A DNA stretch of 36,839 nucleotides from a virus. The position numbers and the translations under genes are program-made. Positions 1,928 to 25,890 of this stretch are shown here, in pieces; position 1 is the first letter of the stretch; every line of letters begins with the position of its first letter. The DNA lies in IMG/VR virus record IMGVR_UViG_3300044998_001419, positions 1 through 36,839 of that record; one strand, 5' to 3'. Under the pieces are notes generated by a model. That model was not told the DNA's origin. It saw only the letters and a program-made list of their open reading frames with translations, and searched no databases.

Positions 1928-2347
1928 ATGAGCCAGCCTGACGATCATCCCCAGCACGTTGCCGGTCGCAAGACCGCCGTGAACCTCGTTGAGTTCGACC
2001 ACCGCACCCGCGAGGTGATCCGGGCCGTGACGAAGGTCGCGAAAGATGTCTTCGGCGAGGCTGCGGTGAAGGAGTTGGAGGGGAGCGTCAGCGTCTCTGT
2101 CGAGGCGAAGGTCATTGCGAAGGTGTTACCCCAAGAGCCGGGTGCGAAGGAGCACGTGCTGCTGGGGGTGTCTTCCGACTACTGCCCCCAAGATTGGCGG
2201 GGTATGCCTGCCGCGTTCGACGGTCCCTTCTTGGTGATCGAGAGCCTCTTTCACTTCCTCCCTCTGCCTCGTTCTTCGCCTGAGGCTGCCGCTGAGGTCG
2301 CGGAGCCTGTGCTTCGCGAGTTGAAGTCGAGGCTCCCCTCGACCTGA
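1928..2347 (+). CDS. Hypothetical protein
   Basis: A 139-aa soluble protein not recognised as a known family. It has a short polar N-terminus, a predicted helix at 23-48 (FDHRTREVIRAVTKVAKDVF), a Ser/Val-rich strand region, and an acidic Ala/Pro C-terminal helix. The start is the ATG at 1928, just after the palindrome; an upstream in-frame start at 1862 would place that palindrome inside the gene and is less likely. It converges on the zinc-knuckle gene 20 bp downstream. It stands alone on the plus strand, apparently under its own regulated promoter. An early regulatory or accessory role is only a guess. Confidence 0.6.
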   Translation: MSQPDDHPQHVAGRKTAVNLVEFDHRTREVIRAVTKVAKDVFGEAAVKELEGSVSVSVEAKVIAKVLPQEPGAKEHVLLGVSSDYCPQDWRGMPAAFDGPFLVIESLFHFLPLPRSSPEAAAEVAEPVLRELKSRLPST

Positions 2348-2367
2348 CCGTCGCGTCCGCTTGCCCT

Positions 2368-3297: not shown

Positions 3298-3347
3298 GAC
3301 GACTCCTCGGGCGGTGGACCCTGATGAGGTTGGCGGACGGCGGACTC

Positions 3348-3369
3348 CACTGACCCACTGTTGTCAGTG
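3348..3369. promoter_or_regulatory. 7-bp inverted repeat, possible operator or weak terminator
   Basis: CACTGAC (3348-3354) and GTCAGTG (3363-3369) form a perfect inverted repeat with an 8-base spacer. It lies between the 3' end of the HTH regulator gene (3376) and the GTG of the membrane-protein gene (3297), both leftward. It could be an operator for the downstream gene or a short hairpin; there is no U-tract. Confidence 0.35.
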
Positions 3370-3375
3370 AAGTCG

Positions 3376-3846
3376 CTACGACGATGACCGCCGGCGGTGT
3401 GGCCGGTGACCCGTCGATGGTCCTGTCTGTGACCCAAGGGTGTCGCGGAGCCGGGTGAGGAGATCGACCAGTTCCTGCGTGTCCGAGAGGAGCCGTTGGG
3501 CGGCGTTGAGGCTGGCGTCCGCGAGTTGCTCGGGGGTAGCCGCTGCGTCCTCTCGTCCCCGAGCGTGGGGTCGGTCGCCGTGGTCGTCGAGGCACGTCAG
3601 TCGGAAGCCTGGACGGACTCGGTAGCCCCCGGCCTGCTCGTCGTGGTAGACCGGGACGCCGGCCAGTTGCAGCGTCTGGATGTCCCGGTAGACCGTCCTC
3701 TCACTGACTTCCAGTTCCTTGGCTATCCCCTCGGCGTCCCACGGTTCTCCGCGGCTCAGGACGAACTGGAGAACGCGGAGGACCCGGCCGATGCGTTCGC
3801 ACTGGCGGGCTCGACGTTCCGCATCTGTTCGTTTCTGTTTGGCCAC
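3376..3846 (-). CDS. HTH transcriptional regulator (DeoR/WYL-type N-terminal domain)
   Basis: A 156-aa DNA-binding protein. Residues 18-75 give a clear winged HTH of the HTH_11/DeoR type: ERIGRVLRVLQFVLSRGEP, then GIAKELEVSERTVYRDIQTL as the HTH, then a GVPVYHDEQAGGYRV wing. This is the usual N-terminal part of WYL-domain regulators, but the WYL ligand domain is missing. Instead there is a short tail with a helix (AAQRLLSDTQELVDLLTRL) that could dimerise. It may be a stand-alone repressor or a WYL regulator shortened by deletion. It starts at a GTG with a rather distant GGAG. Lying upstream of the zinc-knuckle gene, it probably controls neighbours. Confidence 0.8.
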   Translation of the reverse strand: MAKQKRTDAERRARQCERIGRVLRVLQFVLSRGEPWDAEGIAKELEVSERTVYRDIQTLQLAGVPVYHDEQAGGYRVRPGFRLTCLDDHGDRPHARGREDAAATPEQLADASLNAAQRLLSDTQELVDLLTRLRDTLGSQTGPSTGHRPHRRRSSS

Positions 3847-3929
3847 GGGGTGATCGTCTCTCCGCTGGCATCGGCGGCCCTTGAGCCGTGTCGCGTGCTA
3901 CTATCGCGGATCGCGATGACACCTCTGGG

Positions 3930-4769
3930 TCAGTCCGCTGACACGAATTTCCGCGTTGGATTCGGACCGGTCGGAGTGGGGGCGGTCGGGGTGGCTGGGT
4001 CCGAGAACGGAGTCGTCCGGAGCGTCGCGGTCTTGTAGCTCAGGTACGCGACCAGTTGGTCGATGAGCCGACGTTCCGGGGTCGTGAGGAACCGCCTCTG
4101 ACACCGGAGAACTTCCGCGATGTCGGTGAAAGAGAGTTCCCCGACGAAGGGCGAGCGGGGGAGGCCACGGAGTTTGTCCGCGTGCGGGATCGAGGCGAGG
4201 AGTTTCGCCCGGTCCCGGTACTTGGCGACGAGCGGGTTGTTCCGGGTCGGGGCGACGAGGACCTGGACGAAGTCGCGGGGCCGGGTGTCGAAGAGTCGGA
4301 ATCGTTCGTACCAGCCGCATTCCAGCAGTCCGACCCGGACATTGCGGATGAGTTGGTCGCTGGGGTAGGTTCCGGTCGGGTCGCCGTTGGCCGTCTTCGG
4401 CGAGAGCGGCGACTCGTACTTGAACTCCCAGAAGGCGGTGGTGGGGGCCTGGCCTTCCCACCGCATCGTGACCTCGATCTGGGAACTACCCTCCCGCCAG
4501 CCGAGGAGTTCGACGGGGAACATGGGGCGGTTCTGCCAGAGGTCGATCCGGAACCTCGACAGGTGTCGCCGGTCGAAGCGGTTGACACCGAGGGCGGCGT
4601 TCAGCAGGTCGGGGATGACCCAGCGGGGTTGAAGAACCTTGAGGACGCTCATGACGGTCGCGGTCACGGCGTCCTCGGCGTTGCTCCGGAGGATGAGCGG
4701 GCAGCGGAGCTTCCCCTCGGCCGCGAGCTGGCAGAGCTTCCCCTGCTTGCCTCCGAGTTCAAGCAGCAT
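3930..4769 (-). CDS. Hypothetical protein, possibly PD-(D/E)XK nuclease-like
   Basis: A 279-aa protein of no firmly recognised family. The middle contains hydrophobic strands ending in the pattern W-E-F-K followed by YESPLS and SDQLIRNVRVGL. That resembles the E-x-K plus helix core of PD-(D/E)XK nucleases that handle DNA ends, but the assignment is by eye. The C-terminal third has helices and an RCQRRFLTTPERRLIDQL segment. The ATG at 4769 was preferred over an upstream start because it begins just inside the end of the Cas4-like gene (11-bp overlap), typical of translational coupling. Sharing an operon with a second nuclease suggests DNA recombination, repair or defence against competing DNA. 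Confidence 0.6.
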   Translation of the reverse strand: MLLELGGKQGKLCQLAAEGKLRCPLILRSNAEDAVTATVMSVLKVLQPRWVIPDLLNAALGVNRFDRRHLSRFRIDLWQNRPMFPVELLGWREGSSQIEVTMRWEGQAPTTAFWEFKYESPLSPKTANGDPTGTYPSDQLIRNVRVGLLECGWYERFRLFDTRPRDFVQVLVAPTRNNPLVAKYRDRAKLLASIPHADKLRGLPRSPFVGELSFTDIAEVLRCQRRFLTTPERRLIDQLVAYLSYKTATLRTTPFSDPATPTAPTPTGPNPTRKFVSAD

Positions 4770-5616
4770 GGGGCGGGTCCACGGTCGGGAGGTTGATCCG
4801 GTCGTCCGGGGGTGGCGGGAGGGATTGGTCCGATTGCCACTCACGACAGGGCCGCCGGTAACTGCATGTCGAGCAGTTGTGCGGGGACTCGATCGGGTAG
4901 AACACCCCGTGATCGACGGCGTGGTCGATCACCTGGACGAGATCCCCGAGCCGGGCGATGTCCGGGAGTGTGCGGGTGGCCGGGACCGACTGGATCTTGA
5001 CCTTCTTCGTCTTGACCAGGACGAGGAACCGGAAGGCGGCGTCCTCGGCGTACTGCTCCTGGGCGGCGTGGACGTAGGCGGTCGGCTGGATGGAGAGAGC
5101 GGCGTCCATGTCCGAGTACGAACGGCTGCTGGTCTTGATGTCGGTGACGACGAGCTTCCCAGCGTCGTCCCGAGTCAGGAGGTCGAGGACGGCGACCAGT
5201 TCCCGGGCCATGACCTCGCCACGGGTGTTGATAAGCGGGACGACGATCTCCTGCTCGACGCCGACGATATTCTCCGGCGGGGGCTGTTGGAGGTAGGCTT
5301 CGATCAGGGCGGTCCCCTGCTCGACGTGCCCGGGCTCGGTTCCCCGCGGGTAAGTGATCAGGTCCCACCGCTTTCGTTCCGTCCAGGCGGTGTGGAACGC
5401 GTTGAGGACGGACACTGGGACCATCGGCCGGCCCTGCTGGAGGCTGCGGTGGTAGTGGGCCAGGGCTTCGTGCAGGACGGCCCCCAGAGCGAGAGGTGCC
5501 GGAGTGGATCGCGGCGGGATGCCGAGAACTCGCTGGAACCAGTACTGGAGCGGGCACCGCAGGTACTGATTGATGGCCGTGTAGCTGGTCGGGGTGCTCA
5601 AGTTGAGTGTCTCCAC
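4759..5616 (-). CDS. Cas4/RecB-like PD-(D/E)XK nuclease with Fe-S cysteines
   Basis: A 285-aa nuclease of the RecB/Cas4/AddB superfamily, expected to cut or resect DNA ends. Visible motifs in order: SYTAINQYLRCPLQYW with Cys21; His49 in LGAVLHEAL; Asp145 in VLDLL; Asp159-Ile-Lys161 in VVTDIKTSS; and QPTAYVHAA with Gln177 and Tyr181 (the QxxxY motif). Three more cysteines follow near the end, C248, C251 and C257. Together with Cys21 these match the four-cysteine 4Fe-4S arrangement of Cas4 and AddB. There is no cas1/cas2 or CRISPR array here, so a phage recombination role is likelier than spacer acquisition. Its 5' end overlaps the zinc-ribbon gene and its 3' end overlaps the next gene, so it is mid-operon. 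Confidence 0.85.
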   Translation of the reverse strand: METLNLSTPTSYTAINQYLRCPLQYWFQRVLGIPPRSTPAPLALGAVLHEALAHYHRSLQQGRPMVPVSVLNAFHTAWTERKRWDLITYPRGTEPGHVEQGTALIEAYLQQPPPENIVGVEQEIVVPLINTRGEVMARELVAVLDLLTRDDAGKLVVTDIKTSSRSYSDMDAALSIQPTAYVHAAQEQYAEDAAFRFLVLVKTKKVKIQSVPATRTLPDIARLGDLVQVIDHAVDHGVFYPIESPHNCSTCSYRRPCREWQSDQSLPPPPDDRINLPTVDPPHAA

Positions 5617-5831
5617 CGGGGTGGGTGTGGGGGATGCGGTCGGCCGTTGCGGGACGGCTTGCGGGGCGAAGGTGGTGGCTTCCGACCGTCCGGAGTGATG
5701 TCCTCCGGGCGGTAATCAACGCTGGCCCCGCAGAAGTGGCAGTCGATCACATTCCAGGGCTCGACGGGCTCGTCCCCGAAGAGGGGGATGCGGGTGCCGC
5801 AGACCGGACAGCGGATGTAGAAGAGAGCCAC
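5598..5831 (-). CDS. Small zinc-ribbon protein
   Basis: A 77-aa protein with two cysteine pairs, CPVC (residues 8-11) and CHFC (31-34), spaced as a zinc ribbon. A basic Pro/Arg/His-rich tail could contact nucleic acid. The GTG start has a strong AAGGGAGG ribosome site. It begins two bases after the TAA of the preceding gene and overlaps the nuclease start by 19 bp, so it belongs to the same tightly packed operon. Function unknown; a nucleic-acid-binding accessory factor is plausible. Confidence 0.7.
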   Translation of the reverse strand: MALFYIRCPVCGTRIPLFGDEPVEPWNVIDCHFCGASVDYRPEDITPDGRKPPPSPRKPSRNGRPHPPHPPRWRHST

Positions 5832-5833
5832 GG

Positions 5834-6361
5834 TTACCTCCCTTCGCCCACGGTCTGGTTGAGGGCGTCGATGATCTGGCCTGCCTGCTTCTTGGTGAGT
5901 TGGTGGAGCGGGCAGGGATGACCGATGGTGTCGTTGACGACGGCGTCGAGCTGACCCGACGAGAGCCGCTGCTTCTTGGCCAACGCCTGGATGAACCGGA
6001 GTTGGTTCGGGGTGGCCGCGTCGTTCCCGGGGCCGGTCCGGGGTTGGTGGTTTGGGGTTGGTGGGGTGGTCCGTGGCGTGGGCGGCGGTGGAGGATCGGC
6101 CGGTCGGTCCTGCCTCGGGGCCGGATGTGGGAGTTGGGGCCGCGGCTCGGCCGAGGGGATATCGGTGGGCTGGCCCTGGTAGCGTTCGACCTGTTGGCGA
6201 AGGGCCTCGTCCGCGAGGTCGTAGTACTCCTTGATCCGCTCGATGACGGCGTCCGGATCGTCGAGCGGTGCGTTGACCTCGCCTTCGATGTTGAGCGTGA
6301 AGCCGGTCGAGTTGTAGTTGGCGGTCAGCTTCCGGCTCAGGCCGACGTTGACGCGAAGCAT
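5834..6361 (-). CDS. Hypothetical protein, two-domain
   Basis: A 175-aa protein. The N-terminal 60 residues (LRVNVGLSRKLTANYNSTGF onward) form strands and a helix that look like a small conserved domain of planctomycete elements. A Pro/Arg-rich linker follows (about 68-112), then a C-terminal helical domain starting ATPNQLRFIQALAKKQRL and ending LTKKQAGQIIDAL. That tail resembles the short helical module at the ends of phage single-strand-annealing and DNA-binding proteins. GGAGG precedes the ATG by five bases. Position upstream of the nuclease in the operon suggests a recombination or replication accessory role, not proven. Confidence 0.65.
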   Translation of the reverse strand: MLRVNVGLSRKLTANYNSTGFTLNIEGEVNAPLDDPDAVIERIKEYYDLADEALRQQVERYQGQPTDIPSAEPRPQLPHPAPRQDRPADPPPPPTPRTTPPTPNHQPRTGPGNDAATPNQLRFIQALAKKQRLSSGQLDAVVNDTIGHPCPLHQLTKKQAGQIIDALNQTVGEGR

Positions 6362-6445
6362 GAATCCTCCAGATACGGCCGATCGGACATCAGCAGTACC
6401 CGGAGGGAGGACGACGCATCGGTTGGGTGGGCTTGGCCGCCGCCC

Positions 6446-6691
6446 TCACGCTTCGGAATGGTCCGGTGAAGTGTGTGACTTCGCCTTCTCCCACGCATCG
6501 ACGAGGGCCATGAAAGCGGGATCGGTCTCGACGGGTTGGGTGAGCGTGAAATCACGGACCTTCGTCAGTGGCGTATTCCATCCCCGTTCATCCACCGTGT
6601 CCCAGAGGACGACACACTCGGAATCGAAGGCGACGGCCTGGAGAGTAACCGTCTGGAGGTTCGCGAGGATTCCGGGAGGCAATGGGGTCAT
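6446..6691 (-). CDS. Hypothetical small protein
   Basis: About 81 residues; unrecognised. The sequence alternates strands (LQTVTLQAVAFDSECVVLWD) with a C-terminal helix, suggesting a compact beta-alpha fold. Start is uncertain: the ATG at 6691 lacks a clear ribosome site, while a TTG at 6715 lies 12 bases after the stop of the upstream small gene and would add eight residues. It sits in the early-type leftward block. Confidence 0.5.
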   Translation of the reverse strand: MTPLPPGILANLQTVTLQAVAFDSECVVLWDTVDERGWNTPLTKVRDFTLTQPVETDPAFMALVDAWEKAKSHTSPDHSEA

Positions 6692-6727
6692 GGCAGGGGA
6701 AACGGGATAGAGCAAGCGGCGGGGACT

Positions 6728-6907
6728 TCACTTCCCCTTCTCCCGGATCAGCCTGAGCAGTTCCGCCAGTTGCTCCCGACTGAGTTTCTTGAGGGCGATG
6801 AACAGGCTGTCGCTCATCTCGCCGAGTTCGGCTTCGATGCGGTCGATGTCCTCTTCCTTCGCGGTCGGGGTCAGGCTGCTTCCGCTGTTGTAGCGTGGGT
6901 CGTTCAC
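6728..6907 (-). CDS. Very small helical protein
   Basis: A 59-aa gene beginning with a GTG at 6907 preceded by AAGGAGAA at good spacing. The product starts VNDPRYNSGSSL and continues into an acidic amphipathic helix (EEDIDRIEAELGEMSDSLF) and a second Leu/Lys-rich helix (LSREQLAELLRLI), a likely helical hairpin. It ends just before the next small gene. The strong ribosome site, coherent amphipathic pattern and close packing support it as real. Function unknown. Confidence 0.6.
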   Translation of the reverse strand: MNDPRYNSGSSLTPTAKEEDIDRIEAELGEMSDSLFIALKKLSREQLAELLRLIREKGK

Positions 6908-7037
6908 GTCGAGTTCTCCTTGCTGGCCTCTACCCTACTCGTGGGTAAAGGGGCCGGTTGGTTGCAAGAAAACTCGATTTCTGTTGTGGTTGGCGTGGTT
7001 GCAATCGGCCAGTCGGAGTTCGTGGCTGTCGGGTTGC

Positions 7038-8042
7038 TCAGACGGCGAGGGTGACGATGGGTTCACCGGCGGCGAGCCGGAGGGCCAGGTCGAAGGCCCG
7101 GACCTTGAGGGCAGCCCCGGCTCCGAAGAGAGAGCTTTCGATCCGCTTGGAGGTGCGGTCGGCGTCGTCCCGGCCGCGGGTGGTCTTGTGGTGGTCGATG
7201 TACTCGGTCACGGCGTTGAAGGCGGCGAAGGCGGTGTGCCGGGTCTGCGGGATGTCGGCCCCCATGCCCTCCTCGAAGAGGCGGTTCAGGGTAAGCCGGA
7301 CGTTCTGGGCTCGGGCTGGGTGGCGACCGTCTGGGTCGGGGAAGAGAACCCCGAAGTACTCGTTGAGCCGAGCCTGGGTCGGGGACTGAGCTGCGAGGAA
7401 ATCGACCTTCTCGGCGAGTTGATCGAAGTGTTGGCGTGCGATGCCGAGGACTTGGCGGGCCTCGTTGACGCGGCTGGTCAGGTTCCCGCGGTGACGGATG
7501 GCGATGCCTTCGCCCCGGTGCTGGCGGTGAGCAAGGTTCCAAGTATTAGCACAAACGACGCGAATACTCGTGAAGAAGCACCGCAACGCGGAGCTTCCGT
7601 CGTGGCTATTCGAGAGGAGCAGGAAGGGGTCGATCTGGTCGTCGGAGCCGCGGACCCGGATGGAGTTGGGGAGCTTGGCGAGGAGCCAGACCCGCTCGCC
7701 TTTGCCCAGTGCCCCGGCCGTGTGGTACGCGACCTCGTCGCCGGCAGCGAGCTGATCCATGAAGTTGAAGCACTCGCGGTTTTGGATCGGGGTGTAGCCC
7801 TTGCTGACGACGCCGAGTACCTGGTGGGTGTCGGAGCGGACGACGGCCTTGCGGCGGGGGACGTGGAGGTCGCTGACGGTGCGGAGGGGCTGGAGATCGA
7901 CGGTGTAGTCCAGGCCGGCGGCAATGATGGCCTCTGCGGCAGTCGCAGGGCGTTCGAGACGGGTTCCCAGCCGGTGCCAGGGAGTCGGCCCGGCGTACAT
8001 CATGGCGGGCCGGCTGTTCGTGGTGGCGATGTCTGCGGGCAC
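7038..8042 (-). CDS. DUF932 (phage/plasmid-like) protein
   Basis: A 334-aa protein of the DUF932 family, widespread on phages and plasmids and of unknown biochemical role. Recognisable features are the N-terminal TPWHRLGTRLERPATAAEAI, the central QLGVVSKGYTPIQN-like core (LGVVSKGYTPIQNRECF), the GERVWLLAKLP strand and the CANTWNLA segment, followed by the family's helical second half (NEARQVLGIARQHFDQL, TAFAAFNAVTEYIDHH). Length is typical. The GTG start has GAGGAA upstream. It is first in the leftward early block, so its promoter probably lies in 8043-8305, divergent from the surface-protein gene. Confidence 0.88.
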   Translation of the reverse strand: MPADIATTNSRPAMMYAGPTPWHRLGTRLERPATAAEAIIAAGLDYTVDLQPLRTVSDLHVPRRKAVVRSDTHQVLGVVSKGYTPIQNRECFNFMDQLAAGDEVAYHTAGALGKGERVWLLAKLPNSIRVRGSDDQIDPFLLLSNSHDGSSALRCFFTSIRVVCANTWNLAHRQHRGEGIAIRHRGNLTSRVNEARQVLGIARQHFDQLAEKVDFLAAQSPTQARLNEYFGVLFPDPDGRHPARAQNVRLTLNRLFEEGMGADIPQTRHTAFAAFNAVTEYIDHHKTTRGRDDADRTSKRIESSLFGAGAALKVRAFDLALRLAAGEPIVTLAV

Positions 8043-8305
8043 GATGGTTCCTCACTGGTGGGTGGGTCAGAATGCCGTCACGTGTGGTTACCCTGACCTC
8101 CCGCAGTTGACCGGTACGAGGGATTCCAGAAATGCTGGGGGATTCATCGCTTCTCGAAGTGTTGTGGGCCGGGATGAAATAACGCACATGGAGAAGGAGA
8201 GGAGAAGCTTAGAACCATGTTTTTCTCTTGACGAGCAAAGCACGAATCGCGACTCTATTCCCCACTTCCTTGAACCCACCGATGCCGTACTGAGAACCGA
8301 CACCC

Positions 8306-11203
8306 ATGATTGGCCTTCGTCGTTGGCTGCTCGGTAAGGTCTTTTCGCGTCGCCCAACCTGTAACAGTCAGCCACGCCGAGGGGTTCATCTCGGCCTGGA
8401 ATCACTCGAAGTGCGGGATGTGCCATCCGCAGTGGCGATCAAGCAGCACTTGCAGGGTACGGCTGTCCTGGAAGAAGTCGGCTCGACGGCGATCATCCAA
8501 CTTCCCCAGCCCGTCGTGGCGGCGAACACGATCCTCGTTGGGAGCGAAGTGGTCGATGGATTGCACTATACCGACCCGCCGGTCCTCTTCGAACTCATCG
8601 ACCAGGACGGTAATCCCGTGACGGCGGAGGCTGTGCTCGCCACCCGAATCGGACCAAGTGTCTCGCCTCCGACTCCAGATCCGACTCCAGATCCGGGGGC
8701 AACCCAAACGGCCGTTGCGGGGGCATCATCGACGATTACCGTCGCAGCGGACGTTTTGGAGTTCCTGAGCGGTGTCCACGTCGAGCGGTTGTCAGCGACG
8801 TTTGACGTGAACGATACACAGGTCGCAGTCGCGGTCCCGCCACAAGCTCCAGGCACCAGTTCCTTCGTCATCCTCTCCGGCTCGATCGGCCAGGAAGTGG
8901 AGGGTGCTCAAGGGCAGTGGTCTGCGATGGGCGAACTGACCAATGCTGGCTCAACGCTTCTGCTGACTCGTCTTGAAAGCGGAGTCGCACTGACTGTCGG
9001 GGCTCAGATCGTCACGTTCGACGCAGACAGCGGTGCGACCGTACAGAGTGGGACGTTGACGGTCGATGGCACCGCGACGGCTTCGTACCTGTCCCACCCT
9101 GGGCAAGAAACGTTCCTTGTCAAGAGTGCAACAAGTACTGCGACCGCTCCGGATCTCGCGGTTGCGTACGGCAATGGTGTGATCGGCTTCGCGACAGGCA
9201 ACCCGAACCCTGTCCAAGTGAAATATGCTGTCGTCGCCATCCCCGGCATTGAGTTGCCCCCCGAGATGCCTTTGCCGCCCGAAACGAGCCCAGTGACCAG
9301 TCTGACCCCGTGGGGTCCAATCACGGCGATGGAGGGGGTGAACACCAACACGATCGCTCTCGGGCTGTTCACCGATTCAAGTTTTGGGATGGTCGGCTCG
9401 CAGGCGACGGCCCAGGTCAACTGGGGCGATGGATCAATCTCTTTTGGCCAAGTGTTGGCATTGGCGGATGCACCTGGACAATATGTGGTCGCGTGGGATC
9501 ACACCTATTCGGAGAGCGGAACCTACCAAGTTACTGTGAATGTATGGGACGGCACGTCCATAGTGGCAACCACCACTCTCACAGCGACAGTGTCGCCCTA
9601 CGCGGCAACCGATGACACCTATTACCTCGCTCATGACCGCACGTTGACAACCGATGCCACGTCGGGTTACCGCACGCTGTTTGAGAACGATAAGGTTGAC
9701 CCGCTGAGCCTCACTCTCATCGGCTTCCAGCAAGCCCAGCACGGAAGTGTGACCGTCGCCTCGGACGGATCGTTTGCCTACACCCCTCAGGCGGGGTATG
9801 TTGGCCTCGACTCCTTTACTTACACGGTTCAGTTTGGAGCAACGGTCTCGACTGCCACCGCGACGATCTATGTCCAGAACACGGGGCCGTTGGCGTTCGA
9901 CGATACCTTCTACGGCTCGTTCTCCGAAGGCTTTTCCCAGTACGTCTCCGATGCGGAGAGCTTCACTGGCAGCGTTCTGGCGAACGACTTTGATCTGGAA
10001 GATGCGATCTCGGTCGTTTCCTATTCTCAGCCCCAGTACGGTACTGTAACCGTTACACCTGACGGCCGCTTTACGTACACGCCCGGTCCGAACTTCGCAG
10101 GAACGGACTCCTTCTTCTACACGATTAGCGACGGAATGGTCACGGCGACAGCCAGGGTACAACTTCAACCCCTCGCCGCCGGCGTGGCTCCCCTGGGTGA
10201 AAATGCCCTCGTTCGAGCCAGTCAGCCGCAAATCCCGCCTCTCATTCCCCCGGCGGATATGGACCTCGTTGATTTCCTCCGAGCCGGGGCTCAGATCAAA
10301 CACATCTTCGCCAAAATCGAGGCTGATGTTCGTGCCGGTCGTCTCACCGCGTTAGTCAACCAGGCCGTCGGTGACAAGCCTATCCAGATCAACGATGATG
10401 TTGCCCTCTGGGCGGACAAAGACGGCAAAGTTCACGGTTCAGTACTGTTCGGCCGGGCGGATGCGATTGACCCGAATGACCCGCGACCGTTCTGGGAGAA
10501 GAAGGATCAGCCGTTCGGAACGTTGACTTATACCGGCTCACAGTTCATCGGCGAGTTGTCGATTCCGAGGGTGGATGACACTGGGAGAATCATCAACGTC
10601 GATACTCTGATGCTCGATAAGAACGGCCTGACCGGCGTGTTGCCTCTGACGGGGAACACGAAGATTAACTTCGACAAGGGCTTCTCATCCATCGAGACCG
10701 GCGATAAGGATTTCGATCTGTTGGTTGATAAGAAGGGGAACTTCAAAGTCTGGGCGAAGAAGGCCGACGGTGAACGTGTCGAAGTCATCAGCCGCAACAA
10801 TGACTTGTTCAAAATCAAGACGATTCCCTTCTCTGCCGAGATGTCAAAAGACGGGTTCGCCCTCACCTCCAAGAAGTATGGATCGATTGCTGCGACTTGG
10901 CAGAACTGGAAGAACCCGACGAAAGTTGATGTCGTCATCAATCTCGGCCGGGATCGCACCATTACGCTGGGATATGACTACACGCAGGGTCCGCTGAAGA
11001 AGACGATCTCGGCGATCCTGAACACCCCGACTACGAAGTTTGGCTTCAATTACACCTCCGGCAAAGTGGAATTCACGGGCAGTTATAAGTGGACCGGAAA
11101 CACCGCACCGTATGGAGCAATTGGGTACGCCAACGTCAAGCTGACGCTTGACAACGTCCTGAAGCAATCCTCGATTTGGATTCAGCTATCCGTCGAGTGG
11201 TAG
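8306..11203 (+). CDS. Large secreted/surface protein with PKD and cadherin-like repeats
   Basis: A 965-aa protein with a basic N-terminus and a planctomycete-style leader ending LGLESLEVRDVPS near residue 43, which marks secreted or surface proteins in this phylum. About 340-430 is a PKD-like domain (VNWGDGS, then YSESGTYQVTVNVWDG). Two cadherin-like/Ig-like repeats follow: 435-525 with HGSVTVASDGSFAYTPQAGY and 530-620 with YGTVTVTPDGRFTYTPGPNF, both ending DSFxYT. The last 300 residues are Gly/Lys/Asp-rich beta sequence ending in alternating aromatics (SIWIQLSVEW), perhaps a barrel or adhesin domain. Nothing resembles a phage tail fibre. It is divergent from the DUF932 gene and followed 16 bp later by a TPR gene. 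Base composition looks less GC-rich than the head genes, consistent with cargo. Confidence 0.85.
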   Translation: MIGLRRWLLGKVFSRRPTCNSQPRRGVHLGLESLEVRDVPSAVAIKQHLQGTAVLEEVGSTAIIQLPQPVVAANTILVGSEVVDGLHYTDPPVLFELIDQDGNPVTAEAVLATRIGPSVSPPTPDPTPDPGATQTAVAGASSTITVAADVLEFLSGVHVERLSATFDVNDTQVAVAVPPQAPGTSSFVILSGSIGQEVEGAQGQWSAMGELTNAGSTLLLTRLESGVALTVGAQIVTFDADSGATVQSGTLTVDGTATASYLSHPGQETFLVKSATSTATAPDLAVAYGNGVIGFATGNPNPVQVKYAVVAIPGIELPPEMPLPPETSPVTSLTPWGPITAMEGVNTNTIALGLFTDSSFGMVGSQATAQVNWGDGSISFGQVLALADAPGQYVVAWDHTYSESGTYQVTVNVWDGTSIVATTTLTATVSPYAATDDTYYLAHDRTLTTDATSGYRTLFENDKVDPLSLTLIGFQQAQHGSVTVASDGSFAYTPQAGYVGLDSFTYTVQFGATVSTATATIYVQNTGPLAFDDTFYGSFSEGFSQYVSDAESFTGSVLANDFDLEDAISVVSYSQPQYGTVTVTPDGRFTYTPGPNFAGTDSFFYTISDGMVTATARVQLQPLAAGVAPLGENALVRASQPQIPPLIPPADMDLVDFLRAGAQIKHIFAKIEADVRAGRLTALVNQAVGDKPIQINDDVALWADKDGKVHGSVLFGRADAIDPNDPRPFWEKKDQPFGTLTYTGSQFIGELSIPRVDDTGRIINVDTLMLDKNGLTGVLPLTGNTKINFDKGFSSIETGDKDFDLLVDKKGNFKVWAKKADGERVEVISRNNDLFKIKTIPFSAEMSKDGFALTSKKYGSIAATWQNWKNPTKVDVVINLGRDRTITLGYDYTQGPLKKTISAILNTPTTKFGFNYTSGKVEFTGSYKWTGNTAPYGAIGYANVKLTLDNVLKQSSIWIQLSVEW

Positions 11204-11219: not shown

Positions 11220-12269
11220 ATGATGGGTTGGATCCCCCTGACGGTCTGGTTTCTACTCCCCTCCGGTCACGGGTGGATGGAGCGGCTGGACACATGGGCG
11301 TTTCACGCGTATCTTCGCGGCCAGTACGCCGCGGCCGAGCAGATGTGGACCGTCGTGGCGGAGTACTACCGCGGCAAGTCCGGCAAGCGTAATGAGTACG
11401 CCGAGGCTCTGAACATGCTAGCTCAGTCACAAGCTGCTGGAGGTAAGCAGCGTGACGCTGAGCAGAATATGCGGCTTGCATGTCGGTTGCTGGAATCGAC
11501 ATGGGGTGACGGGAAAGGGAAGACACCCGCGGCCGTTATTAACCTCATCCGGTTCCTTACGAAGATCGGTCGGTTCCGCGAGGCCGAAGAATTAGCTACG
11601 GCTCACTTTCGCAACACGGTTCGACTTTGGCCGGACGACCCGGAACAACACGCCGATGTACTACTCCTCTTCGTCCAACTCTACCTTGACAGCGGACGTT
11701 TGCCTGATGCAGAGAAGTGTGGACGGCGAGCGATTGAGTTGTACGGGAATGAACGAGTCTTCGAGACCATGATCGCGGCTGTGGCTACTGAGATGGCTTC
11801 GGTCTACATCCAACTCGGCAAGAAGAAAGAGGCCGAGAAGATGTTGGAGTTGGCGAAGAGGTCACGTGTATATCGCGATTCGCTGACGTTTGCCTGGGCC
11901 GATTACTACCTCGCGTTCGATCAGCCCAAGATGGTCCTCTTCGTGCTCGAGGCCAGATACCAGGCACTGAAGAAGGACGACCGGAAGCCATCTGAGCACC
12001 ACGTCGCACTTCTGAACGAGCGGTTAGGTGAAGCCGCGGTTCGACTCGGCGACGCCGCGACCGGGAAGAAGCTGCTCCACGCCTCCCTCGACAATTACGC
12101 GAAGGAACTGGGCCCAACCCACCCGCGGCTGGTGCGGACGTTGGAGACTTACGCCCGCCTTTTCCCTGATGAGGCCGAACCGTATCTCGCCCGAGCTAAG
12201 AAGGTCCGTGACCGGATGAGGGAGAACGAGCCGAAGGGCCTTAACGCTGCCATCGGCAAACTCCCCTGA
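11220..12269 (+). CDS. TPR-repeat protein
   Basis: A 349-aa protein with a short hydrophobic N-terminus (MGWIPLTVWFLLPSGHGW) that may be a weak signal, followed by helical repeats of tetratricopeptide type: HAYLRGQYAAAEQMWTVVAE, EALNMLAQSQAAGGKQRDAE, GRFREAEELATAHF, LDSGRLPDAEKCGRRA and QLGKKKEAEKMLELAKR. Near the end GPTHPRLVRTLETYARLF matches the kinesin-light-chain-like TPR signature. Such proteins scaffold other proteins. A GGAGGG ribosome site precedes the ATG. Only 16 bp separate it from the surface-protein stop, so the two form one transcript and may act together at the cell envelope. The partner is inferred from position. Confidence 0.85.
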   Translation: MMGWIPLTVWFLLPSGHGWMERLDTWAFHAYLRGQYAAAEQMWTVVAEYYRGKSGKRNEYAEALNMLAQSQAAGGKQRDAEQNMRLACRLLESTWGDGKGKTPAAVINLIRFLTKIGRFREAEELATAHFRNTVRLWPDDPEQHADVLLLFVQLYLDSGRLPDAEKCGRRAIELYGNERVFETMIAAVATEMASVYIQLGKKKEAEKMLELAKRSRVYRDSLTFAWADYYLAFDQPKMVLFVLEARYQALKKDDRKPSEHHVALLNERLGEAAVRLGDAATGKKLLHASLDNYAKELGPTHPRLVRTLETYARLFPDEAEPYLARAKKVRDRMRENEPKGLNAAIGKLP

Positions 12270-12742: not shown

Positions 12743-13942
12743 TCAGCACAGCGGCATGACCAGGTAGGAGTAGCTCGGACCGTGGCGGAACAGGATGGGC
12801 CTTTTCGGGTCGGTCAGTTCCAGGGCGATAGTCTGGTCGGCGGGCAGGACTCGTAGGGCGTCGGTAACGAACTTCGGGTCCAGGGCGACGGTAACCGGCT
12901 CGCCGGAGTATTCGATGGCTAGCTGCACCTTCGAGCGGCCGGCGTCGGGGGAACGGGTTTCGAGGGTGAGGATGTTGTCCTTGAAGGTGAACTCGACCCC
13001 CTGGCTCTCTCGGTCGGCGAGAACGGCGGCCTGACGGATGACGGAGTGGAAGATTCCGACCGCCAGCGGAATCTCGACCTTCTTGGTCTTCGGGAGGATG
13101 TCGCGGTACGGCGGGTACTTCCCTTCGAGGAGCCGGGTGTGGATGACCGCGGCCCCGACTCGGATCAGGGCCTCGTTCTCGCGGAGGGCGACCTTCACCG
13201 TCTGCTCGCGGTCGTCGAGGAGCCGTTCCAGCAGCTGCATCGCCTTGGTCGGGACGATGTGGTACTTCCCCGGCGGTTCGTTCCCCCCGTGGGCCTGGGC
13301 TTGGCACCGGGCGACGGCGAGACGTTTGCCGTCGGTGGCGACCAGCCGGAGTTCCTTCTCGTCCAGTTCCCAGAGGGTGCCGGTGAGAGCGTAGCGGGCT
13401 GCGTTGTCCTTGGCTGCGGCGAAGGTGGTGCGGCGGATCGCGTCGCGGAGTTGCCCCGCGGTGACCGTGTGGTGTTGTTTCGAGCGGGGGGTCGGCACCT
13501 CCGGGAAGTTCGCCGGGTCTTCGGCGTTCAACTCGAACTCGGACTGCCCCGCCCGGATCAGCGTGGTGGGGTCGCCCGTCTCAACGGTGACGGTTTCTTC
13601 GGCCGTCTCCCGCAGGATGGCGATGAGCCGGTTGGCCGGGAGGAGGAACTGTACCGGAGCGTCGGCTTGAACGCCGGCCACGTCGAGGCGGACGCCGATC
13701 TCCAGGTCCGTTGCTTCGATGGTGCATCGGCTCGGCGTGGCGGCCAGTTTCAAGTTTTGCAGTGTCGGCCGGTGCGAGTTGGCTGGGACGGCGACGTTGG
13801 CGAGTTGACAGGCGGCGAGGAGGTCGGCCCTTTGGCAGACGAGTTTCGGTCCTGACCTGGTCGGCGGTGGGGGTTGCGGACGGTCCCGCCGGGAACGGGT
13901 ACGGGGCGGTTCCGGCGGGGCGGCGGTCGCGGACGGCGGCAC
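12743..13942 (-). CDS. dnaN: DNA polymerase III beta subunit (sliding clamp)
   Basis: A 399-aa ring-forming processivity clamp that tethers the replicative polymerase to DNA. The three-domain DnaN pattern is clear: domain 1 with LLAACQLANVAVP and TLQNLKL; the FLLPANRLIAILRE and FPEVP segments; domain 2 with LRDAIRRTTFAAAKD and LRLVATDGKRLAVAR; domain 3 with EGKYPPYRDILP and the C-terminal YSYLVMPLC, close to the usual YLVMPMR end. About 32 Pro/Arg-rich residues precede the normal N-terminus. The GTG start has GGAGG upstream. A clamp inside a phage-like element, together with the clamp-loader-like gene at 34016-34891, suggests a partly private replication machinery. The chromosomal dnaN would not normally sit in such a context. 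Confidence 0.93.
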   Translation of the reverse strand: MPPSATAAPPEPPRTRSRRDRPQPPPPTRSGPKLVCQRADLLAACQLANVAVPANSHRPTLQNLKLAATPSRCTIEATDLEIGVRLDVAGVQADAPVQFLLPANRLIAILRETAEETVTVETGDPTTLIRAGQSEFELNAEDPANFPEVPTPRSKQHHTVTAGQLRDAIRRTTFAAAKDNAARYALTGTLWELDEKELRLVATDGKRLAVARCQAQAHGGNEPPGKYHIVPTKAMQLLERLLDDREQTVKVALRENEALIRVGAAVIHTRLLEGKYPPYRDILPKTKKVEIPLAVGIFHSVIRQAAVLADRESQGVEFTFKDNILTLETRSPDAGRSKVQLAIEYSGEPVTVALDPKFVTDALRVLPADQTIALELTDPKRPILFRHGPSYSYLVMPLC

Positions 13943-14130: not shown

Positions 14131-15087
14131 TCAGTGCCGGGTGTCTTGGTCGAGAAGTCTCGCGAATGGCTCGTCCCCGAGACGGGCTAGGACTAATCGC
14201 ATCCCTGTGTCGTCGCCAAGCCGACGAAGTTTGTGAAAGAGCAACACCGTCAGGAGTCGAGCCCAGTAAGGATGCACTGGGAAAGTCATCGATGGATCTG
14301 CAGGCGGCGACTGTCTGATTAACCGCTCGAATTGAAGGAAGGCGAGAAGCTCTTCGGGAGCCGCCATCGGTTGCATCTGCGATGTCGTGTCGAAGCTCCG
14401 GTGGGCTCGGATACGGCTGGCTCGATCGTAATCGTCACGATAAAGGTGGATCGACCCGACCATGTGTTGATACCAACCGACGTCGAGGCCGAGTTGGCAA
14501 GCCATCAACTCCTGAAGCATGGTGAAGAAAAAGATGTCATAGCCGAACCCCATCATGATATCGTTACTTCGCATGAAGTTTGATAAACACAGGCGTCCTT
14601 CCCGCACCATGAAATGAAGTGTGACGGTGCAGGGTACATCAGGAGCTTCGGTAGAGACACTCAGGTCATCCATCGTGAAGAATGGGAGGATCGCTCGGCG
14701 GGTGTCTGGGTCCTTGGCCAGGAGTTGCCTGATCCGATCCCACGGACTCACTTCGGTACCCTGGCCGGAGAAAAGGCGGAACCCGTAGCAGCTACCTCGG
14801 ATGGTACGGCCGTCGCCCGACACCTGACGCCACCGCTGAGAGTAGTGGGCGATGAACTCGAGCTGATCGGAACCTGAAGCATGCCAACAGAACTCACCGA
14901 TCGCGTAGGCGATACTCCATCGCCTGACGGGATTGAAGATGAGCCGAGAACGAGGGTTCGCGATCCGGAACACGGAGTCGGTGCATTCGAGGCTGGGGAG
15001 TCCGCGAGGCGAAACCTCATACCCGTTGTCGAGTATGTGAGCCAGTTCCCCCAGAAACGCAGCATCGAGAGTTGGGTAGGTCTTCAT
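14131..15087 (-). CDS. Divergent thymidylate synthase-family protein, dCMP-type signature
   Basis: A 318-aa ThyA-superfamily protein. ThyA enzymes transfer a one-carbon unit from methylenetetrahydrofolate to C5 of a pyrimidine nucleotide. Visible landmarks: Glu65 in AIGEFCW, nucleophile Cys153 in VPCTVTLHF, phosphate-binding Arg173 in FMRSNDIMMG, and His214/Tyr216 in GSIHLYRDD. Spacing from Cys153 to Arg173 (20) and to Asp184 (31) equals E. coli ThyA Cys146-Arg166-Asn177. Position 184 (GFGYDI) is therefore Asp where ThyA has Asn. Asp is what dCMP hydroxymethylases use to read cytosine, and the same change redirects ThyA to dCMP. The usual His after the nucleophile is Thr. The last 100 residues are not ThyA-like by eye. 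It follows the deaminase-fold gene by 40 bp. Family firm, substrate inferred. Confidence 0.8.
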   Translation of the reverse strand: MKTYPTLDAAFLGELAHILDNGYEVSPRGLPSLECTDSVFRIANPRSRLIFNPVRRWSIAYAIGEFCWHASGSDQLEFIAHYSQRWRQVSGDGRTIRGSCYGFRLFSGQGTEVSPWDRIRQLLAKDPDTRRAILPFFTMDDLSVSTEAPDVPCTVTLHFMVREGRLCLSNFMRSNDIMMGFGYDIFFFTMLQELMACQLGLDVGWYQHMVGSIHLYRDDYDRASRIRAHRSFDTTSQMQPMAAPEELLAFLQFERLIRQSPPADPSMTFPVHPYWARLLTVLLFHKLRRLGDDTGMRLVLARLGDEPFARLLDQDTRH

Positions 15088-15127
15088 CGGAGTTCCGGAC
15101 CGTCGGAGCGAGCGAGCATGACCGTAG

Positions 15128-16432
15128 CTATTTCCCCTTCGTGCCGTTCGGGGGTTTGGCTTTCTCCAGTGCTTCGAGCCGGCGTTCCAGGCTCTCGATG
15201 AGAACCCTCTGCTCCTGAATCGCCTTCGTCTTCTCCTGCAACTGCTCCGTGTTCTTTTTGAGAGACTCGATCAATTCCATGTTCCGCCGCTGCGACCCCT
15301 CAAACTCTTCCTTTAACGCCTTCGTCTCCGGCCCGTGGTCTATGAGAATGGTGGTAGACTTCTTGTCGTCACCGGATCCTTTCACGAATAGGGGAACGAT
15401 TTGTACGACCCCGACGACAAGGGCCACGATCGCAACGACGGCCCCGACCTTCATGAGGAACCTGCTGAGAAACTCCCGCTCGTCTTTGAGCACCTGCTCC
15501 CCAACCAGCCGAACAGTTCGGGGCACGTTCAGAAACGTATAGGGGAAGTCGATGGCCTTCCTGATCTTCGCGTTGATGTAGGCCGTCTGCTCTTTCGGTC
15601 CATAACTGCCGACCGCTTGAGCGGCCGCGGCGGCAGTGACACTGGCCGCGTTGGCGGCCTTCGCCTCTCGTGAGACACTCTCGGCCTCTACCCGTTTCGC
15701 CGCGGCCTCATCTTCGGCTGCCTTCGCTTGGGCAGCCGCCGCATCGGCTTCCGGTTGCTTTCCTGTGTCCGCTTGGGCCGTGACCTGAAGACTTCCAGCG
15801 GCTGCTCTGGCCGCCTTCGCACGCTCCTCGGCCGCCGTCGCGTCTGATGCTTTCGCGTTGGCGGCAGCAGTTGCGTTTGCGGCCGCCGCAGCGGCTCTGG
15901 CGGCTTGTTGCTCTGCAGCCAGTTCGGCCGTCATCAGTTCACCCTGCTGAGGGGCGATCGGCTCGAACACCAACCGAAGGAACGGCATCCCTTTTTTCAA
16001 CGGGAACTTCGAATTCGCGAAGTTAATGGTGGTGCCGGAAAGGAAACCCTTGAAGTTGGGGTCAACGATGCCGGTATTCAGCACCAAAAGGCCGTCATCG
16101 CAGAGACCGGTCTTGGGCATGGCGTAGCCGCAGAGACCCGGCGGGCACACCACGACCTCACGCGAGAAGATCACGACGACGCCTTGCGAGGGGACCTGGT
16201 ATTCCTCGACCAACTGTGAATTGTCGATTGCATCCTGGCCTCGGGCAGAGTCGCCATCTTCCTTCACGGCAGACGTCGGTACCTTGGGGACGTAGATGCT
16301 CCCGATCGTCAGATCGAACCCCATCTCCCGGTATCGGGGGTCCGTCGCATCGATCACTCTCAGGGTTTCGTTGTCGTCACCGAGATCCCGAACGACGTTC
16401 AGTTCCCTGATCCGCTCCTTGCTGAGGACCAT
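15128..16432 (-). CDS. dCTP-deaminase/dUTPase-fold protein fused to coiled coil and membrane anchor
   Basis: A 434-aa protein. Residues 1-160 follow dCTP deaminase: MVLSKERIREL, then MGFDLTIGSIYVP, then VPSQGVVVIFS and VDPNFKGF, ending KKGMPFLRLVFEPI. The active site is not kept: the RSSLAR motif (E. coli Ser111 to Arg115) reads KTGLCD, and the catalytic Glu138 position is Thr or Asn depending on alignment. About 165-275 is Ala/Glu/Lys coiled coil, 328-350 a membrane helix (VGAVVAIVALVVGVVQIVPL), and 365-425 a second coiled coil on the other side. The ATG at 16432 has GGAG at good spacing; a longer start adds 17 basic residues outside the family. This looks like a membrane-tethered nucleotide-binding or sensing protein rather than a deaminase. 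It is first in a two-gene unit with the ThyA-like gene. Confidence 0.78.
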   Translation of the reverse strand: MVLSKERIRELNVVRDLGDDNETLRVIDATDPRYREMGFDLTIGSIYVPKVPTSAVKEDGDSARGQDAIDNSQLVEEYQVPSQGVVVIFSREVVVCPPGLCGYAMPKTGLCDDGLLVLNTGIVDPNFKGFLSGTTINFANSKFPLKKGMPFLRLVFEPIAPQQGELMTAELAAEQQAARAAAAAANATAAANAKASDATAAEERAKAARAAAGSLQVTAQADTGKQPEADAAAAQAKAAEDEAAAKRVEAESVSREAKAANAASVTAAAAAQAVGSYGPKEQTAYINAKIRKAIDFPYTFLNVPRTVRLVGEQVLKDEREFLSRFLMKVGAVVAIVALVVGVVQIVPLFVKGSGDDKKSTTILIDHGPETKALKEEFEGSQRRNMELIESLKKNTEQLQEKTKAIQEQRVLIESLERRLEALEKAKPPNGTKGK

Positions 16433-23708: not shown

Positions 23709-25478
23709 TCACGCGGGCAGGAGTCGGCGGTCGCGGAGCTTCCGGGTGACGAGGTCGCGGTGCCGATCCTGGAGTTCGGCCGGCGGGAGCTTGTCCGGGT
23801 CGATCGTGTTCGGCGGTCGGGTGCCCAGGAGTTGGTGGGCGGCGTTGACCGCGAGGGCCGCCTCGTCCTTCGTCGCGTAGTCCCCGAGGTCGATGGCCTC
23901 CCCCTCCCGTTCCAGGACGGCTTGCCACGAGTCGAACGACGGGACGAAGCGGACGCCGGTATAGTCCCCGGGGCGGTGGTCCGGTGGTTCCACGGGTTGC
24001 TGCCCGCCGACGACGAAGACGGTCGGGCTCCGCTTGTCCGGGAGCTGGACGGCCAGGAGGGCGGCGAGGGCTAGGGCCGTGTACCGGTCGTCGTGATTCC
24101 CGGCGGTGTGGTTGACCCGGTACATCCCGTTCGCCCGTTGCTCCTCGGTGATGAGGAGGGCGAGCTCGGTGTTCAGGTCTTCGGTGGTGCCGTCCGGGTT
24201 CCGGAGTTGGCCGGCGTGCGGGTACCAGGCGATCCGGGCGGACTCGACGAGCCCCTTCAGGTTCTCCGCGAGCTGCGTGTGGCCCCAGCCCTGGAAGGAG
24301 TACCGCGTGACCTTCAGCCCCTTCTTCTCCAGGTGCTGGGTGAGGAACTCGGCCTGGTGGTTGTCGAAGATCGCGTGCCGGATGCGGAAGGCGGCGACGG
24401 TGGCATCGGTCCAGCTCTGAACCTCGTCGAAGTCGATCCGACCGTCGGATGGGGCGACCCAGACCTTGAGGTGGTCGAGGACGACCCGGTCCCGTTCCCG
24501 GTGGGCGACGGCGATGACCGCCCGGTCGTGCGAGATGGCGAGGTCGCCAGCCAGGACGTAGGTGTGCCTGCGGTCGCCGCGGTGCCCGATGGCGAGCGTC
24601 GGGTCGGTGCAGGCGTCGATCTGGTCGCGGGTCAGGTACTGGGCTTCGGTCTCGCTCGGGTCCACCCAGACGTTGTCGAAGACCCGGCGGGCCATCGAGG
24701 GGGTGAGGCCGCGGCGGATCTCGGCGACCTTCGCCTCGGACATCCAGGACGCGAGCCGGACCCCCTCGGGGGACTCGTAGAAGTGCCAGGCCGGGCTGGT
24801 CCGGGCGAGTTCCCGGAGGGTCCACTGCCACTGATCGGGACCCTTGAGGCCGGCGTTGGTGATAACGATGAAGACGCAGTGGGGTCGCTTGCCGGCCCCG
24901 CCGAAGAGGACGTCGTAGAGTTCGCGGGACCGCCAGAAGGTGATCTCGTCCACGACGACCACGTCGGGGAGCAGGCCGGACGCGGTGTCGGCGTCGGAGG
25001 AGCGGATCTCCAGCTTCCCACCGGGGCCGATGACCTCCCAGTTGTTGAACCGGAGCCGGGCGTCGAGCCAGAGGTTTCGCTTGGCCTCGGCCTTCATCGC
25101 GTCCCGGATGATCCGGGCCTGGGTCTTGTCCGCCGCGGCGGCGTAGGCCTTGATCGGGTTCCGGGCGAAGGCGACGGACCAGTTCAGCAGCCGGCCGATG
25201 AGGGAGGACTTGTCGTGCCCCTTCGGGAGGGTGAACCAGAAGAAGAGGGGACCGTCGTAGTCGGGGCGGAAGCCGCAGGCGTACTCGATCGCCGGGACGA
25301 GCGGGCGGACGAGGGCGGTCTGCCAGGGCTCGCGGATGAGTGACCACCGGCGGGGAGGAGTCGAGTCGATGACGACGTGGTCGAGGTAGGCGGCCAGGGA
25401 GCGGCCGGCCTCTCGGCGGGCGAGTTCGTGGGCCGCGACGAGGGTGCGTTCCAGGGCTTCGCGGTCGAGGACGGGCAT
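23709..25478 (-). CDS. Terminase large subunit
   Basis: A 589-aa DNA-packaging motor: ATPase plus headful nuclease. Walker A-like LPKGHDKSSL lies at 84-93; it has Asp where the usual GKS/T glycine stands. Walker B VVVVDE is at 173-178, followed by a VFIVITNAG motif III region. The RNase H-like nuclease half shows Asp312 in VLAGDLAISHD, Asp372 in AIFDNHQAE, and a late DDRYTALALAALL motif. The ATG at 25478 is preferred because the longer version would run through the operator and start of the divergent CsoR-family gene. It is divergent from that cassette, with the start codons only 120 bp apart. Confidence 0.9.
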   Translation of the reverse strand: MPVLDREALERTLVAAHELARREAGRSLAAYLDHVVIDSTPPRRWSLIREPWQTALVRPLVPAIEYACGFRPDYDGPLFFWFTLPKGHDKSSLIGRLLNWSVAFARNPIKAYAAAADKTQARIIRDAMKAEAKRNLWLDARLRFNNWEVIGPGGKLEIRSSDADTASGLLPDVVVVDEITFWRSRELYDVLFGGAGKRPHCVFIVITNAGLKGPDQWQWTLRELARTSPAWHFYESPEGVRLASWMSEAKVAEIRRGLTPSMARRVFDNVWVDPSETEAQYLTRDQIDACTDPTLAIGHRGDRRHTYVLAGDLAISHDRAVIAVAHRERDRVVLDHLKVWVAPSDGRIDFDEVQSWTDATVAAFRIRHAIFDNHQAEFLTQHLEKKGLKVTRYSFQGWGHTQLAENLKGLVESARIAWYPHAGQLRNPDGTTEDLNTELALLITEEQRANGMYRVNHTAGNHDDRYTALALAALLAVQLPDKRSPTVFVVGGQQPVEPPDHRPGDYTGVRFVPSFDSWQAVLEREGEAIDLGDYATKDEAALAVNAAHQLLGTRPPNTIDPDKLPPAELQDRHRDLVTRKLRDRRLLPA

Positions 25479-25540
25479 GGCGGTCCCGGGTCGGGGAGGA
25501 TGACCCCGGATGGAACCTGACCGTGTGTCGGGGAGTGGAC

Positions 25541-25568
25541 TTGACCGGCCGGCCGCGATGCATAACAT
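25541..25568 (+). promoter_or_regulatory. Promoter of the metal/sulfide-response cassette
   Basis: A -35-like TTGACC (25541-25546) and a -10-like TAACAT (25563-25568) are spaced by 16 bases. The operator palindrome begins four bases further on, so bound repressor would overlap the start of transcription. Assignment is by eye. Confidence 0.5.
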
Positions 25569-25571
25569 AGG

Positions 25572-25590
25572 GGTAGGGAGTATCCCTACC
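25572..25590. promoter_or_regulatory. CsoR-type operator palindrome
   Basis: GGTAGGGA, spacer GTA, TCCCTACC is a perfect 8+8 inverted repeat ten bases before the start of the CsoR-family gene. Operators of CsoR/RcnR/CstR proteins are G/C-tract palindromes of this look, so autoregulation is the natural reading. Metal or persulfide binding to the repressor would release it. Confidence 0.75.
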
Positions 25591-25599
25591 GAGGTGGTC

Positions 25600-25890
25600 A
25601 TGGCAGAGAAGAAAGCGTTGCCGATCTTCACCGACGAGTTGAACCGGGACCTCCTGGATCGGCTGGCCCGGGTCGAGGGTCAGGTCCGAGGCGTCGCCAA
25701 GATGGTCGAGGGACAGCGGCCGTGCCTGGAGGTGCTCCAGCAGCTCGCGAGCGTCCAGGCGGCCCTGAAGGGCGTTACGAAGTCGGTCTTGAGGAACTAC
25801 CTGGAGCGGTGTGCGACCGACGCCATCCGGTCCGGGGACAACGCCGTTTACGACGAACTCATGGACGCCATCTACAAGTTCGTGAAGTGA
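25600..25890 (+). CDS. CsoR/RcnR/CstR-superfamily repressor
   Basis: A 96-aa all-helical repressor. The family signature is clear: LLDRLARVEGQVRGVAKMVE followed by CLEVLQQLASVQAALKGVTKSVLRNYLERC. Cys42 and Cys71 occupy the CsoR Cys36 and Cys65 positions (29 apart), but the copper-binding His61 position is Tyr67. A Cys-Cys pair without that His is the pattern of CstR persulfide sensors and would also suit a thiophilic metal such as mercury, rather than classical copper. It starts at the ATG at 25600, just after the operator, and is first of three plus-strand genes. Family firm; inducer inferred. Confidence 0.93.
   Translation: MAEKKALPIFTDELNRDLLDRLARVEGQVRGVAKMVEGQRPCLEVLQQLASVQAALKGVTKSVLRNYLERCATDAIRSGDNAVYDELMDAIYKFVK

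Follow-up and report, generated by a model that had tools for sequence, protein, structure and literature searches.

A membrane-anchored Dcd-fold protein family and its adjacent nucleotide enzymes: candidate nucleotide-linked phage-defence modules

What is the role, in a viral element, of a gene pair that encodes a membrane protein of the dCTP deaminase (Dcd) fold and a thymidylate synthase (TS)-family enzyme? The window, i.e. the whole stretch of DNA analyzed here (36,839 nt), was taken from an IMG/VR virus record. The two genes of the pair are separated by 40 bp, as the first-pass annotation had reported, and both lie on the minus strand, which that annotation had left out. The features of the pair are as follows.

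15128-16432, minus strand: DCD-TM-CC protein, 434 aa, ATG at 16432 (ORF, Pfam, AF2 and Foldseek, family alignment)
15947-16432, minus strand: DCD/dUTPase-fold domain, residues 1-162 (AF2, motif comparison)
15593-15946, minus strand: Ala-rich helical linker, residues 163-280 (family alignment A3, AF2 helices)
15518-15580, minus strand: family-conserved juxtamembrane stretch, residues 285-305 (invariant columns of A3 and A7)
15383-15439, minus strand: predicted transmembrane helix, residues 332-350, VVAIVALVVGVVQIVPLFV (hydropathy)
15158-15331, minus strand: C-terminal coiled coil, residues 368-425 (AF2 model)
14131-15087, minus strand: TS-family enzyme, predicted dCMP 5-hydroxymethylase, 318 aa (Pfam, MilA homology, signature residues)

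The gene pair in its viral setting

An integrase gene is located at the left edge of the window, which also encodes a terminase, a portal, an HK97-type capsid protein and a head-tail adaptor. No tail gene was recognized among the window ORFs scanned, and the window may be a fragment or a tail-less element. For the same reason the start of the tail genes, where the pair had been placed in the first reading, is unconfirmed, while its position after the capsid and head-tail-adaptor genes is clear. No related viral contigs were found with the capsid protein as query. The pair was also said to be less GC-rich than the head genes, and this held: GC3 was 0.64 and 0.72 in its two genes vs 0.88-0.96 in most of the terminase-to-connector genes, which fits recently gained cargo. 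The phage may well be temperate and the two-gene cassette a moron-type cargo; we regard this, jointly with the defence function proposed below, as an evenly balanced judgement. None of the known defence genes tested was present in the window region, and no promoter was detected when the sigma-70 consensus was scanned for.

Several other genes of the window were recorded. A DNA polymerase III beta-clamp homologue with three Pfam domains (12743-13942, minus strand) directly follows the pair. On the opposite strand are two genes of low GC3, encoding a 965-aa protein with PKD/cadherin/Ig-like domains (8306-11203, plus strand) and a TPR protein (11220-12269, plus strand), which are likely more cargo. 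HNH endonuclease matches were located on the minus strand at 23709-25631, 26910-27548, 31637-32158 and 32283-32867, one of them at the C terminus of the ORF for the large terminase subunit.

A Dcd fold without its catalytic motifs, and the enzyme encoded next to it

The dCTP-deaminase/dUTPase fold assigned to the first protein was borne out by three lines of evidence. Both the Pfam DCD (1.6e-6) and dUTPase (4.9e-6) families matched above their curated cut-offs, AlphaFold2 (AF2) predicted an N-terminal beta barrel with a pLDDT of ~90 over the core (lower, ~50, in residues 54-70), and the top PDB matches of the model were dCTP deaminase-dUTPases (Foldseek, 4a6a, E = 1.2e-10). The Ala-rich linker is an insertion found only in the window protein in family alignment A3, and forms helices at residues 161-212 and 232-272 in the AF2 model. 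It is followed by the juxtamembrane motif Y...FPYTFLNV, in which Y285, F300 and L301 were invariant or nearly so in A3 and A7. The membrane helix and coiled coil of the first reading were likewise found, as one strongly hydrophobic stretch (mean KD 2.91) and a single long C-terminal helix of ~58 residues with a pLDDT of 74-95 over most of its length.

The motif positions of the window protein read AMPKTGLCDDG...NTGIVDPNFKGFLSGTTINF vs GRSSLARLG...IDPGWxGxIVLEF in canonical Dcd. The GRSS triphosphate-binding motif is replaced by PKTG and the catalytic Glu (E138 in E. coli Dcd) by Thr, while dUTPase motif II (RSG) reads KTG. The Gly-rich C-terminal arm of dUTPases (motif V) is absent, the barrel leading straight into the Ala-rich helix. 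The base-pocket hairpin LNxGIVDPxxxG is kept. GRSS and the catalytic Glu were lost in 20/20 sequences (the window protein and 19 relatives) and kept in 21/21 canonical Dcd, and the (I/V)(D/E)xxxxG hairpin was recognizable in the window protein and the 19 relatives. An active Dcd or dUTPase of the known kind was therefore rejected on residues, since GRSS, the Glu and motif V are all missing, and for the same reason the DCD domain is most likely a non-catalytic binding domain. Nucleotide depletion by this protein, which had been raised at first, is thus unlikely.

The second protein matched Pfam Thymidylat_synt (5.8e-23) as a full-length family protein. Its original ThyA-like label was right as to the TS family, but by its sequence the type is dCMP hydroxymethylase rather than ThyA. 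The closest solved relative was MilA, a CMP 5-hydroxymethylase (7.5e-50). In MilA, Asp186 marks the use of cytosine, and preference for CMP comes with Lys133 and Ala176, that for dCMP with Arg and Ser (PMC5175136). The window enzyme carries the cytosine-selecting Asp (D184) and the deoxyribose-selecting Arg and Ser (R130, S174) together with the intact catalytic Cys and Glu (C153, E65) and the ribose His and Tyr (H214, Y216), and from these residues the predicted activity is that of a dCMP 5-hydroxymethylase.

Conservation of the pair elsewhere had been named as a test, and this did not refute the first reading: a pair of the same two genes, in unchanged order, was found at L031, in a proteobacterial chromosome. 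There the two genes overlap by 1 nt, the hydroxymethylase is 38% identical to the window enzyme, and a divergent dCMP deaminase gene is also present. GC3 of the L031 pair was 0.47-0.50 vs ~0.7-0.8 for most neighbouring chromosomal genes, and no phage genes were evident around it. The window and L031 sequences were sisters both in the hydroxymethylase tree (support 92/94), from which three long or divergent rows had been left out on rebuilding, and in the tree of the DCD-TM proteins (85/90); the support is moderate, below the strict threshold in both. That two independent trees agree speaks for joint inheritance of the pair in the two loci, the only ones from which a DCD-TM and hydroxymethylase pair is known. 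In a first hydroxymethylase tree, which included T4 gp42, the window and L031 sequences were not grouped; this tree was set aside as unreliable because the gp42 row had a branch length of 7.

The enzyme could instead belong to a DNA-modification cassette, in which it would supply 5-hydroxymethyl-dCTP for the DNA of the phage itself (T4-like hmC) and the Dcd-fold protein would help to remove dCTP or would tether the enzyme to the membrane. Its T4 gp42-type signature agrees with this, and phages with such enzymes often have deaminase, NTP-pyrophosphatase-like or glucosyltransferase genes nearby. However, we consider this explanation unlikely because the partner is without the known catalytic and phosphate motifs, because no other genes of the hmC pathway were detected in the window (no glucosyltransferase, deaminase or 5-hmdU-kinase homologue at E<=0.01 and, in the ORFs scanned, no hmdCMP kinase), and because the L031 pair lies in a chromosome, away from evident phage genes. 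The low-GC3 cargo character of the pair, and the pairing of the Dcd-fold family with enzymes that have no part in DNA base modification, also speak against it.

The DCD-TM-CC family, its partner enzymes and their context

The DCD-TM-CC family was defined by a DCD domain without GRSS and the catalytic Glu, one TM segment after the DCD domain and the Y...FL juxtamembrane motif, all of which are found in the window protein. One hydrophobic segment followed the DCD domain in 19/19 family members and in none of 3 canonical Dcd. The family search began from two weak plasmid matches and was continued with alignment-based scans and profile searches; profile A3 matched its seed loci at E < 1e-60 and canonical Dcd at ~1e-16 or weaker. 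Exact-peptide scans with the two proteins of the pair (P0001 and P0002) found no relatives in viral contigs, and none for P0002 in genome contigs; because only close copies are detectable in this way, the search called for alignment-based scans (A2, A5) as well as profiles. Members were found in Pseudomonadota, Acidobacteriota, Verrucomicrobiota, Actinomycetota, prophages and satellites, and they are rare, at ~1-2% or less of the sampled genomes per group with seed genomes counted. A tblastn search of 50,697 phage records found no DCD-TM relative, and PADLOC 2.0 gave no match for either protein of the pair. The anatomy described above and the existence of the family are nearly certain.

A nucleotide enzyme is adjacent in the window, in L031 and in most other family loci; none was recognized beside L017 or L085. 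The partner was a SAM methyltransferase in 7 loci (with a 4-nt overlap in 6), a divergent dCMP-deaminase-like gene in L009, L013 and L059, a convergent HAD phosphatase in five viral contigs (L061-L065) as well as in P4-type satellites of E. coli, and the hydroxymethylase in the window and L031. ThyX (2.5e-47), HMUDK_hel (1.1e-95) and a dNK-like kinase identified by eye each occurred once. Each partner class formed one group in the DCD-TM tree, with 4 partner changes vs 10.9 in shuffles, and 0/200 shuffles were as low. L033 and L060 sit near canonical Dcd in this tree, so their membership of the family is weaker.

Further genes were noted around the family loci and in plasmids. Two methyltransferase-partnered loci are extended by a fusion of a P-loop domain and adenylosuccinate synthetase (L010, 5894-8204; L016, 8070-9671), followed in L010 by a DUF7002 gene. 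A RES-domain protein is encoded directly downstream of the DCD-TM gene in L059 (504-1340, minus strand). In the plasmids L002, L003, L006 and L008, a dCMP-hydroxymethylase-type TS gene recurs with an aGPT-Pplase3-type gene nearby downstream of it, the latter being a Pfam match in L002 and look-alikes by eye in the other three, and a convergent gene annotated as ImmA/IrrE is present in L002, L003 and L006.

The gene arrangement bears on another possibility, that a constitutively toxic membrane protein is restrained by the product of the enzyme or by physical contact with it. The genes overlap or nearly so in many loci, the pairing is tight, and a TM and coiled-coil architecture would suit a toxin. 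However, the genes are convergent in one lineage and divergent in another, which is unusual for antidote-first operons, and the partner enzymes have unrelated folds, so that a protein-protein contact common to them is difficult to envisage. Given the context and the diversity of partners, we regard a toxin-antidote pair as very improbable.

Defence genes were frequent around the family, according to a descriptive tally of neighbours that is not a test. The deaminase pairs adjoin 5mC methyltransferase, Vsr-like and type II restriction genes. AriA/AriB-like PARIS genes (1.5e-23 / 5.5e-16) and type I RM genes (4e-178) flank the ThyX pair, and GajB (2.2e-175) adjoins one methyltransferase pair. 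The HAD pairs are near type II methyltransferase/restriction genes, in P4-type satellites or in the P2-like Q-A hotspot, an established reservoir of anti-phage systems (PMC9122126). No defence island was evident around L017, L019 or L031. The L085 locus (1004-9019) has its DCD-TM gene convergent with an operon whose genes resemble, by eye, those for HATPase, Z1, PD-(D/E)XK-like and AIPR-like proteins, and no nucleotide enzyme was seen there up to the contig end. According to PMC13092281, TS-family and 5-hmdU-kinase domains are part of systems whose anti-phage activity was validated in E. coli, and a dUTPase-containing defence system is predicted only and unvalidated. The link of the pair to pyrimidines and defence, suggested from the window alone, stands for the wider family, which is tied to pyrimidine enzymes and defence loci; the pair itself is one member of this larger modular family.

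Canonical Dcd is regulated by dTTP. The family protein could serve pool homeostasis, sensing dTTP/dCTP/dUTP-type nucleotides, controlling the dCMP-dUMP-dTMP enzymes at the membrane and supporting replication instead of defence. Partners on the route to dTMP (dCMP deaminase, ThyX, TS-family enzyme and dNK-like kinase) and the presence of solved Dcd-dTTP complexes among the nearest folds (Foldseek) are in line with such a role. However, the sporadic distribution at ~1-2% of genomes or less, the frequent placement in defence loci and prophage hotspots, the low-GC3 insertion at L031, and the HAD and SAM-methyltransferase partners do not fit it. Because of this context and partner diversity, homeostasis is quite unlikely in our judgement.

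Proposed function and comparison with known systems

The reading we prefer, though evenly balanced as noted above, is a two-part defence module with a nucleotide-responsive DCD domain, an enzyme-controlled ligand and a membrane output. Since a constant membrane Dcd domain is combined with a variable nucleotide enzyme, the simplest view is one in which the amount of the Dcd-bound nucleotide depends on the enzyme and the membrane part acts as the output. We infer that the product of the first gene is probably trimeric and anchored in the inner membrane, with a Dcd fold lacking deaminase chemistry and the triphosphate-binding motif; its Dcd domain, which retains the base-pocket hairpin, would most likely bind a pyrimidine (deoxy)nucleotide. 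The predicted dCMP 5-hydroxymethylase would make or remove this ligand. Infection by a competing phage would shift the ligand and switch the membrane/coiled-coil part, which would probably damage the membrane or arrest growth and could thereby give protection from phage. Across the family, one receptor would be served by interchangeable pyrimidine enzymes. Against this reading, some partners (deaminase, ThyX) should make ordinary nucleotides, so that no special signal molecule is needed. A further-reaching proposal, which we put forward only tentatively, is a form of nucleotide-signalling immunity not recognized before, in which the dead Dcd domain acts as a membrane pyrimidine-nucleotide receptor/effector for ligands set by diverse enzymes (hydroxymethylase, dCMP deaminase, ThyX, phosphatase, kinase, methyltransferase), and in which the trigger would be the very disturbance or modification of the dNTP pool by a phage.

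The family looks like a set of nucleotide-linked phage-defence modules not described before: a literature search of limited coverage found no description of this DCD-fold membrane family and no experiment on it, and an earlier bioinformatic mention is possible. If the proposal is true, the Dcd/dUTPase fold would be added to the receptor folds of nucleotide-based bacterial immunity, and scattered pyrimidine enzymes of defence loci would be linked to one membrane partner. The family allows a direct test of whether bacteria sense changes that phages make in pyrimidine nucleotides, and profile A3 lets others find it, PADLOC 2.0 having no match for the Dcd-fold protein.

Among known systems, Pycsar includes types with TM effectors. 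The system consists of a pyrimidine cyclase and a receptor for cyclic pyrimidines (PMC11224242). The pair resembles Pycsar by a works-like analogy, with a small pyrimidine nucleotide, a membrane receptor/effector and two genes. The Pycsar receptor is a cyclic-nucleotide-binding domain, whereas that of DCD-TM-CC has the Dcd fold, and no pyrimidine cyclase was found among the neighbouring ORFs (by family scans in the window, by eye in L031 and L075). In P4 satellites, an HAD-like hydrolase with a transmembrane protein is active against T7 (PMC9122126). Compared by description, this system and the HAD sub-clade both combine an HAD phosphatase and a membrane protein in P2/P4 elements; PADLOC gave no HAD/TM-system match for the HAD or DCD-TM proteins of the family, and the window partner is a hydroxymethylase instead of an HAD hydrolase. 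The DefensePredictor systems (PMC13092281), also compared by description, share TS-family and 5-hmdU-kinase domains with the family partners, and no Dcd-fold membrane partner was found in the descriptions compared.

The deaminase partners in L009, L013 and L031 match the PADLOC 'dCTPase' model locally in its deaminase motif region, but they are short and free-standing, without the long remainder of the model, and the Dcd-fold protein does not match it. The SAM-methyltransferase partner matched the MADS 'mad2' model (1.4e-13); MADS membership was rejected, and the match is read as generic methyltransferase similarity because the same model also matches a type I MTase. The window enzyme is homologous to MilA over its whole length and shares the catalytic Cys, Glu, His and Tyr and the cytosine-specific Asp, whereas its ribose-selecting Arg and Ser match T4 gp42 and differ from MilA. 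MilA lies with antibiotic genes and T4 gp42 with T4 replication genes, while the partner of the window enzyme is DCD-TM-CC. Finally, the DCD-TM-CC proteins have the fold, the start motif (MxLS..I) and the GIVDPxxxG hairpin in common with Dcd and bifunctional Dcd-Dut, and differ from both in having lost GRSS and the catalytic Glu and in carrying a TM helix and a coiled coil.
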